Source: Hypericibacter adhaerens (GTDB lineage Bacteria > Pseudomonadota > Alphaproteobacteria > Dongiales > Dongiaceae). Taken from it: a stretch of DNA of 64,000 nt. The position numbers and the translations under genes were made by a program. The stretch is from positions 248,001 to 312,000 of the forward strand of contig NZ_CP042582.1 in assembly GCF_008728835.1 (NCBI RefSeq). The letters run 5' to 3'. Shown here piece after piece: positions 37,321-38,117 of this stretch. How positions within the stretch are numbered: position 1 is the first letter of the stretch; every line of letters starts with the position of its first letter. Under the pieces are notes generated by a model, which saw only the letters and a program-made list of their open reading frames with translations, was not told the DNA's origin and ran no database searches.

Positions 37321-37410
37321 GGAGGGGTGGCCGAGTGGTTTAAGGCACACGCTTGGAAAGCGTGCATAGGGTAACACCTATCGCGGGTTCGAATCCCGCC
37401 TCCTCCGCCA
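37321..37410 (+). tRNA. tRNA-Ser (anticodon GGA)
   Basis: A 90-nt class II tRNA with encoded CCA. Acceptor GGAGGGG pairs with CTCCTCC (one G-U). The anticodon loop TTGGAAA gives GGA (reads UCC/UCU). The long variable arm is GCATAGGGTAACACCTATCGC, and the T-arm carries GGTTCGAATCC. The 113-bp repeat array starts at the very next base. Confidence 0.97.
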
Positions 37411-37859
37411 CCCTACGCCTACGGCTTCGGGTGGCAGGCCACGGAGTGGACTGACGTCCGAAGGCGTAGGCGTAGGGTGATCTCCCGAAGCTGCGAAGCA
37501 GCGCAGGGAGACAGCGGGCCATGAGGCACTTCTGCTTTTTCGGGTGGCAGGCCACGGAGTGGACTGACGTCCGAGGGCGTAGGCGTAGGGTGATCTCCCG
37601 AAGCTGCGAAGCAGCGCAGGGAGACAGCGGGCCATGAGGCACTTCTGCTTTTTCGGGTGGCAGGCCATGGAGTGGACTGACGTCCGAGGGCGTAGGCGTG
37701 GGGTGATCTCCCGAAGCTGCGAAGCAGCGCAGGGAGACAGCGGGCCATGAGGCACTTCTGCTTTTTCGGGTGGCAGGCCACGAAGTGGACTGGCGACCGG
37801 AGGCATGGGCGTAGGGTGGTCTCCCGAAGCTGCGAAGCAGCGCAGGGAGACAACGATCC
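37411..37859 (+). repeat. 113-bp tandem array, about 3.8 units, with coupled mini-ORFs
   Basis: Units begin GGGTGGCAGGCC at 37429, 37542, 37655 and 37768: exactly 113 bases apart. Each contains the hairpin CTCCC-GAA-GCTGC-GAA-GCAGC-GCA-GGGAG (first copy 37482-37510). The GGGAG arm doubles as a ribosome-binding site before an ATG. From each ATG (37521, 37634) a 38-codon frame runs to a TGA that overlaps the next ATG (ATGA). The last unit instead ends at the ATG of the GIY-YIG gene, and its own mini-frame (from 37747) runs 28 bases into that gene. The array begins with a 13-bp inverted copy of the unit tail (37411-37423 against 37465-37477). Confidence 0.9.
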
Positions 37860-38117
37860 ATGTGGTACGTCTACTTCCTTAAATTGAGCAGCGGCGACAT
37901 CTACGTCGGCTCTACCAATGATTTGAAACGGCGCTTTTCTTTGCACCGGGCTGGGCAGGTCCTTTCAACGAAGGCACGTCTGCCCGTCGAACTGAAATCC
38001 TATGTCGCCGTCGAAACAAAAGAACATGCACGAGAGCTCGAAATCTATTTCAAGTCCGGCTCAGGAAAGGCCGTTGCTCTCAAACGTCTTGTCAGGACAA
38101 GCAAGCCTGCGGAATGA
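37860..38117 (+). CDS. small GIY-YIG nuclease family protein
   Basis: An 85-residue single-domain GIY-YIG protein: the MWYVYFLKLSSGDIYVGSTND segment holds the GIY-like VYF and YIG-like YVG strands. LKRRFSLHRAG carries the catalytic Arg, and ARELEIYFKSGSGK carries the Glu. This is the size of the stand-alone YhbQ/UPF0213-type nucleases rather than UvrC. Base composition is noticeably less GC-rich than its neighbours, a hint of mobility. Its leader (hairpin, GGGAGA, ATG) is the same sequence that is repeated upstream. The first 22 bases resemble the start of the mini-ORFs (ATG-GG-AC-TCT-CTT pattern). Confidence 0.9.
   Translation: MWYVYFLKLSSGDIYVGSTNDLKRRFSLHRAGQVLSTKARLPVELKSYVAVETKEHARELEIYFKSGSGKAVALKRLVRTSKPAE

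Follow-up and report, generated by a model that had tools for sequence, protein, structure and literature searches.

A tandem array between tRNA-Ser(gga) and a GIY-YIG gene

In the 64-kb stretch of Hypericibacter adhaerens DNA analysed here (the window), a tandem array lies between a tRNA-Ser(gga) gene and an 85-aa ORF coding for a GIY-YIG nuclease (Table 1). Tandem Repeats Finder located the array at positions 37426-37852, with a period of 113, 3.8 copies, 95% matches and a score of 777; the other three tandem rows of the window score only 53-63. The first three units are mutually identical at 110-112 of 113 positions, and the fourth, adjacent to the nuclease gene, agrees with these at 95-98/113.

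An earlier reading of this DNA from its letters (the sequence-only reading) had proposed a unit spacing of 113, and the ATGs at 37521, 37634, 37747 and 37860 do follow each other at exactly this distance. The same reading let the array begin directly after the tRNA CCA. This is true of the element (37411) but not of its repeated part (from 37426): the 15 bases following the CCA occur a single time, outside the repeated part. Likewise, the 13-bp inverted match reported at the array start is present (37412-37424 with 37458-37470), but not as a copy of the unit tail; it is a portion of the stem of a long hairpin (37409-37479) within the first unit. Over their first 21 bases, the mini-ORFs agree with the start of the nuclease gene at 14/21 positions, ATG counted, so that the view of them as decayed starts of that gene is reasonable. 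To judge from this likeness, the array unit seems to include a decayed copy of the first codons of the nuclease gene.

Table 1. Coordinates of the features at the window locus and of a second arrayed locus in the same genome
Feature	Position	Strand	Remarks
tRNA-Ser(gga)	37321..37410	+	ARAGORN and Rfam RF00005; its 3' CCA is the first strand of hairpin A
Hairpin A, left end of element, overlapping the tRNA end	37405..37437	-	mirror image of hairpin C, 3x3 internal loop
Alternative long hairpin of the complete first unit	37409..37479	+	competes with hairpin A
Element left arm, single copy, directly after CCA	37411..37425	+	sequence and Tandem Repeats Finder
Array unit 1	37426..37538	+	
Hairpin C of unit 1	37481..37511	+	repeated at 37594-37624, 37707-37737 and 37819-37851
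Mini-ORF 1	37521..37637	+	38 codons, TGA within next ATGA; by-product of repeat
Array unit 2	37539..37651	+	112/113 identical to unit 1
Mini-ORF 2	37634..37750	+	38 codons, TGA within next ATGA; by-product of repeat
Array unit 3	37652..37764	+	110/113 identical to unit 1
Mini-ORF 3	37747..37887	+	46 codons, stop inside nuclease gene
Unit 4, diverged, reaching into first 18 bases of nuclease gene	37765..37877	+	98/113 identical to unit 1
GIY-YIG nuclease ORF, 85 aa	37860..38117	+	PF01541, E 9.1e-12
tRNA-Met(cat) GIY-YIG locus with 112-bp array	L010:1253-2067 = G000:C1:1136752-1137566		

The GIY-YIG nuclease is conserved and under purifying selection

The PF01541 match of the 85-aa ORF reaches 45.6 bits, against a Pfam cut-off of 22.6. 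Across 30 aligned proteins, Y5, Y15, G17, R25 and H29 are invariant and E61 is found in at least 90%; we take Y5, Y15, G17, R25 and E61 to be the Tyr, Tyr-x-Gly, Arg and Glu of the GIY-YIG active site. The comparison of the window copy with ten others gave pN values of 0.09-0.20 and pS values of 0.62-0.83, and the nuclease is under purifying selection.

The AlphaFold2 model (pLDDT 86.5) has the GIY-YIG fold. The nearest solved fold is the UPF0213 protein 1zg2 (Foldseek E 3.9e-4; phmmer E 1.6e-4), and Slx1 chains gave weaker fold matches (E 0.02-0.07). The UPF0213/Slx1 branch (PDB 1zg2, 7cq2 and 6seh) shares sequence and fold with the nuclease, with the match to Slx1 being weak; the PDB entries examined do not assign any of these solved relatives to a mobile element. 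Since Slx1 is a branched-DNA nuclease, the recognition of a DNA hairpin by a GIY-YIG protein is plausible by analogy.

Arrays are rare among related loci

The H. adhaerens genome has three such loci, behind tRNA-Ser(gga), tRNA-Ser(cga) and tRNA-Met(cat). The second consists of one leader followed by a GIY-YIG ORF (66% identity). The third, whose ORF also matches PF01541, has its own tandem array between tRNA and ORF (112 bp × 4.3 copies, 99%), in which the four complete units are identical. A poorly resolved tree places the three GIY-YIG copies apart from one another.

Arrays upstream of the ORF were found at 3/90 related loci, namely the window locus, the 112-bp locus and L049, with a 76-bp unit (76 bp × 2.4). 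Seen from the tRNA side, arrays with a period of at least 40 lie within 500 bp in 3/182 distinct tRNA 3' flanks; all three carry the element and a GIY-YIG ORF, and their repeat units differ. In view of this scarcity at tRNA flanks, we reject a satellite.

ATGA coupling of the mini-ORFs is a by-product of the repeat

The sequence-only reading had described three 38-codon frames, each overlapping the next ATG, and this holds for two mini-ORFs but not for the third, which runs for 46 codons to 37887. The coupling needs no design: a period of 113 (2 mod 3), together with an ATGA in the unit and no earlier in-frame stop, produces ATGA coupling by itself. The 112-bp array of the same genome, its period being 1 mod 3, has no stop in any of the three frames and shows no ATGA coupling. 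Furthermore, in the one pair compared, the first and third mini-ORFs of the window, pS was 0.06 and pN 0.11, with no sign of constraint, and two mini-ORFs had no match in Pfam or NCBIfam. The ATGA coupling is a by-product of the repeat, without a function of its own.

The same observations bear on the proposal of a translated regulatory leader, in which ATGA-coupled mini-ORFs would control the nuclease. It would agree with the ATGA that couples two of the three mini-ORFs and with the GGGAG in hairpin C ahead of each ATG. As the coupling results from the period and is missing in the 112-bp array, and as the one pair of mini-ORFs compared reveals no constraint, we reject the mini-ORFs as a regulatory device and find this proposal hardly credible.

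The array unit is the inner part of a two-hairpin element

In relatives, the leader follows a common order: tRNA CCA, hairpin A, palindromic partner arms, hairpin C and ORF (the script rules used for A and C did not recognise both hairpins in every leader). Hairpins A and C are mirror images of each other, each built of a stem, a 3x3 internal loop GAA/GYA, an inner stem and a loop, and they provide inverted ends of the kind present in miniature inverted-repeat transposable elements. The first strand of hairpin A is made of the tRNA's own CCA plus three bases of the element. Among 78 signature sites, 62 have TGG in the second strand, and the triplet after the CCA is the exact complement of the triplet before the TGG at 57/62 of these, which are not all independent because related loci and the own genome are included. 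In 2000 shuffles of the 62 sites the mean was 30.3 and the maximum 40, and outside the common CCC/GGG pair the pairing is found at 16/21 sites. In the 22 aligned leaders, 97.2% of the pair cells form, and changes on both sides were observed in 20 cells, compared to 4.4 in shuffled alignments and at most 3 with slid partners.

The tRNA-proximal segment 37407-37512 folds with a z of -9.6 as RNA and -10.8 as DNA, and the alternative long hairpin tolerates G-U pairs. An internal array unit, which lacks the left arm, folds weakly (z -1.5 as RNA, -2.6 as DNA), and therefore the array duplicates only the inner part of the element. The window locus is a copy of a two-hairpin element of about 95 bp in its basic form, and the array unit is its inner part. 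The 113-bp array would have originated as a tandem duplication of this inner part together with the first bases of the nuclease gene, possibly via slippage or break repair at the hairpins.

In Rfam, only the tRNA reaches its gathering score; BjrC174 stays at 20.9 bits against a gathering score of 45, and a known Rfam RNA was rejected.

The strong RNA fold, the tolerated G-U pairs and the matching changes that keep the CCA pairing could also be read in favour of a functional tRNA 3' trailer kept by the host, either a processing signal or a CCA-pairing regulatory RNA, with the GIY-YIG gene as a passenger. The distribution of the element, given below, argues against such a trailer.

The element recurs at tRNA 3' ends across Alphaproteobacteria

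With a covariance model built from the leader, we searched 289 genomes of the class (Alphaproteobacteria); at an E cut-off of 0.001 and under stricter filters, 30/289 had matches and the other 259/289 had none. After merging by hand the opposite-strand duplicates of palindromic matches, there were 69 places in 29 genomes outside the H. adhaerens genome, and 51/69 lie exactly at a tRNA 3' end (G242:C102, the sequence of which was not retrieved, is counted as not at a tRNA and is excluded from the solo/nuclease count below). By chance, tRNA-end placement would be expected for about 6 in 100,000 places, a rough figure assuming 50 tRNAs and 4 Mb. The 51 places cover 15 tRNA identities and 24/29 genomes, with at most 8 tRNA-end copies per genome. 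The 18 others, G242:C102 among them, are not at an intact tRNA in the sequence at hand, and several begin, as judged by eye, with an apparent tRNA tail.

Behind 13 of the 51 tRNA-end copies a GIY-YIG ORF was flagged at a short distance; 36 copies lacked one, and for 2 the contig end cut off the view. At G125:C2:177578, counted among the 13, a second tRNA follows, and the nuclease is that of the element next in line. Most tRNA-end copies are thus solo (36 or 37/51). The sequence-only reading had named units found widely without any GIY-YIG gene among the results that would make the array an ordinary satellite. This applies in part: the copies without the gene are the majority at tRNA ends, but they are single structured elements and not a satellite. 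Its suggestion of a nuclease-linked selfish unit at a tRNA gained support, and the tRNA-end element recurs far beyond the window locus.

Of the further model matches in the H. adhaerens genome, the 13 retrieved (L157-L169) are dispersed hairpins without an adjoining tRNA, e.g., CCTCCTTCGC..GCTWCGGAGG, which resemble hairpin A.

The search from the protein side retained 80/84 relatives as loci. Several of the loci analysed come from metagenome bins, and some coincide: L029 and L041 are one place, as are L030 and L047, and L276 and L284; L091 and L092 are near copies. A same-strand tRNA end lies up to 600 bp upstream at 31/80 loci, a same-strand tRNA start lies 150-400 bp behind the ORF start at 14/80, and 43/80 have either placement. 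In shifted 600-bp control windows, taken for the upstream side only, a tRNA end was found in 4/291. Among the 22 closest loci, 18 have an upstream tRNA; the four without are L041 (the case of the G006 island, see below), L052, L053 and L056, with L053 and L056 less than 180 bp from the end of the available DNA.

Presence, absence and displacement of the element at tRNA genes

In the G125 family, adjacent tRNA-Val(tac) and tRNA-Asp(gtc) genes were readable in 11 of the 16 genomes searched. At this tRNA pair the element is present in seven genomes, absent in three and decayed in one. The element-free spacer measures 36-47 bp (G306, G307 and G312), and the spacer with an element starting from the Val CCA measures 111-140 bp (G125, G315, G302, G309, G304, G303 and G308), with G303 and G308 having a variant that starts with GCC. 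In G316 the spacer is 54 bp and holds a decayed hairpin. Among the 11 genomes, G125 and G315 have a nuclease-bearing copy behind tRNA-Asp (sequences compared by eye).

Such variation at one and the same tRNA pair among relatives speaks against a host-kept tRNA trailer, as do the restriction of the element to 30 of the 289 genomes, the low number of tRNA-end copies per genome outside H. adhaerens and the many unrelated tRNAs that carry it. We regard a trailer as quite improbable.

Inside an rRNA operon, past the 3' part of the 16S rRNA gene, one further copy separates tRNA-Ile from tRNA-Ala, and another lies between tRNA-Tyr and tRNA-Gly. Copies within an rRNA operon and between tRNA genes make it hard to see the element as a terminator. 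An ordinary transcription terminator or satellite repeat would account for GC-rich hairpins directly behind a tRNA and for their tandem copies. Nevertheless, no hairpin followed by a T run (intrinsic terminator) was found in the leader; the single site detected comes after the ORF, a number no higher than expected by chance (1 vs 0.8). On these results, with the copies inside tRNA and rRNA clusters (the tRNA-Val/tRNA-Asp spacer included), we reject the terminator; taking also the three arrayed flanks in 182, the terminator or satellite reading is very improbable.

A clear target duplication was not found in Alphaproteobacteria, the window locus included; the nearest case is G315, with an imperfect copy of the tRNA-Asp tail behind the ORF. 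Nor was a right-hand inverted end found in the alphaproteobacterial copies, including the window locus. The right end was sought through direct or inverted repeats up to 170 bp from the ORF, and most scores stayed at the shuffled level; among those that did not are L039, where a piece of hairpin C sits at the stop codon, L055, L057, L059 and L060. No exact empty/filled junction was obtained: the comparison of G162 and G030 at tRNA-Tyr gave an inversion instead. There (L297, G162:C4), the tRNA-Tyr and the element are inverted relative to both flanks with respect to G030, and pieces of the element are duplicated.

Islands at tRNA-Ser(gga) have displaced the hairpin element from its tRNA in two genomes. 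In G006 (L260:1090-6800), a phage-integrase island separates tRNA-Ser(gga) from an element whose start repeats the tRNA tail; in the sister species G001 (L258:680-3415), a serine-recombinase island separates tRNA-Ser(gga) from a remnant of the element.

Two other configurations were noted behind tRNAs. At L055, L057, L080, L093 and L275 another insert follows the tRNA and ends in a second copy of the tRNA's last 15-19 bases; at L055, L057 and L080 the hairpin element and a GIY-YIG ORF come next after this copy. At L272, L276 and L273, about 30-38 bases of the 3' half of tRNA-Asp are copied about 60 bp downstream of the tRNA.

Relatives outside Alphaproteobacteria

In a Chitinophagaceae relative (L060), hairpin A precedes the ORF and a C-type hairpin stands at the ORF's stop codon; next come 14 bp that repeat the tRNA-Ser 3' end, and then a further hairpin A. 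In Patescibacteria and others, inverted repeats often flank the ORF, starting at or near the stop codon. Where a tRNA lies just downstream, the best direct repeat of the flanks is or includes the 5' end of that tRNA at 10/14 loci. Signs of target duplication come only from relatives and not from the window locus.

At L065, L074, L075, L079, L083, L090, L095, L097, L099 and L103, small GIY-YIG ORFs adjoin tRNA genes and have the tRNA 5'-end direct repeat on both sides; many also have inverted repeats, and they look like transposon-like units of about 300 bp.

At six loci (L088, L094, L096, L098, L100 and L107) a GIY-YIG ORF lies between inverted repeats inside an RNase P RNA gene, and by eye the RNase P RNA signature GAGGAAAGTCC stands directly behind the inverted repeat. 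RNaseP_bact_a matched in 6/6 of these loci, with E values from 4e-24 to 5e-13 and all scores under the gathering score; in L096 the match begins some 300 bp further on. At L107, the left repeat with the preceding GTCGCC occurs a second time further on. In a Verrucomicrobiaceae bin (L062:2480-2830), a GIY-YIG ORF with the inverted repeat CCCCGTGAGATA interrupts, by eye, an apparent gene, which by its appearance we take to be of DUF1016 type.

The role of the GIY-YIG protein can be weighed at this point. The elements could be mobile via another enzyme, with the GIY-YIG gene being a tRNA-adjacent homing gene or cargo, and this would suit the solo state of most copies, the lack of a target duplication in the alphaproteobacterial loci and the similar hairpins dispersed away from tRNAs in the H. 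adhaerens genome. Against it, many loci share the order of element first and nuclease after it, the nuclease is constrained, and no gene other than the ORF lies between the inverted repeats or hairpins of Patescibacteria and L060. We consider another enzyme unlikely, albeit deserving of some weight.

Comparison with known systems

Small mobile DNA made of two hairpins also exists in organelles, as the mitochondrial double-hairpin elements, to which the tRNA-end element is likened here by description. Free-standing GIY-YIG homing endonucleases, e.g., T4 SegB, are found beside phage tRNA genes, and we know of no hairpin element that accompanies them. The window nuclease resembles this type in being a GIY-YIG protein beside a tRNA gene; with tblastn at E 1e-5, it had no match in 50,697 phage records and none in 72,556 plasmid records, and we reject the idea of a gene common on phages or plasmids. 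The presence of sites at many different tRNAs argues against the single cognate site of a free-standing homing endonuclease.

A similar layout is that of REPIN/RAYT, which consists of inverted doublets with the enzyme gene beside clusters, some of these ordered in tandem (PMC3116915). Both systems have two inverted hairpin repeats as a unit, many gene-free copies, a nuclease-type enzyme gene nearby and ordered tandem clusters of near-identical units. The tRNA-end element differs in its linked enzyme, which is a GIY-YIG protein and not a RAYT tyrosine transposase, and in the position of its copies, exactly at tRNA 3' ends with the CCA in the stem. Because the linked enzyme belongs to another family, we do not count the element as a member of REPIN/RAYT.

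Insertions with GIY-YIG ORFs have been described in rRNA genes of CPR bacteria; they are reported to match no group I or II intron, not to appear spread by homing and to sit mostly at the top or base of rRNA stem-loops (PMC11270868). These insertions sit in rRNA genes, whereas the tRNA-end elements are at tRNA genes, and the words "tRNA" and "RNase P" do not occur in the text of that paper (PMC11270868). Likened by description, the tRNA-end elements may be relatives of these insertions at tRNA genes. An unrelated palindrome behind tRNA genes is known in Methanopyrus (PMC5217627). Among the literature matches listed, the coverage of which ends before subscription papers and preprints, there was no description of GIY-YIG elements at tRNA ends, and the tRNA-end hairpin family is apparently undescribed so far.

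A probable mobile hairpin element targeted to tRNA 3' ends

The anatomy of the element, its pairing, its exact placement at tRNAs, its presence and absence at one tRNA pair and the constraint on the nuclease are established here. On these grounds, we favour with reasonable confidence a mobile hairpin element that is targeted to the tRNA 3' end, has a REPIN-like layout and bears a putative GIY-YIG mobilising nuclease. Some copies carry the small GIY-YIG gene behind hairpin C, and most are solo. The predicted nuclease would recognise the hairpins and cut at the tRNA end, and this cutting could lead to copying of the element onto other tRNA ends; solo copies would then be non-autonomous and moved in trans. 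The GIY-YIG protein is the probable mobilising enzyme, although, with solo copies in the majority, it may not be required.

A wider reading, which we put forward tentatively and hold to be somewhat doubtful, is that small GIY-YIG proteins may carry out the transposition of a class of mobile DNA that has so far gone unrecognised. Its autonomous units would measure about 300-500 bp, with one ORF and hairpin or inverted-repeat ends, and would be directed to genes for structured RNAs. In Alphaproteobacteria and Bacteroidota these targets would be the 3' ends of tRNAs, in Patescibacteria the 5' ends of tRNAs and the RNase P RNA helix that precedes GAGGAAAGTCC; protein genes would be occasional targets. 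The address would be the structure and not the sequence, which, if true, would explain why the CCA is built into the element's own hairpin.

If the favoured reading is true, a GIY-YIG enzyme class would be added to the small mobile hairpin DNAs of bacteria, together with a new landing site, the exact 3' end of tRNAs with the CCA incorporated in the structure of the element. It would also explain the frequent occurrence of small GIY-YIG genes beside tRNA genes and, for hairpin elements that lack an enzyme, would offer a type that can be tested. With the covariance model, tRNA-end hairpin elements are easy to annotate.
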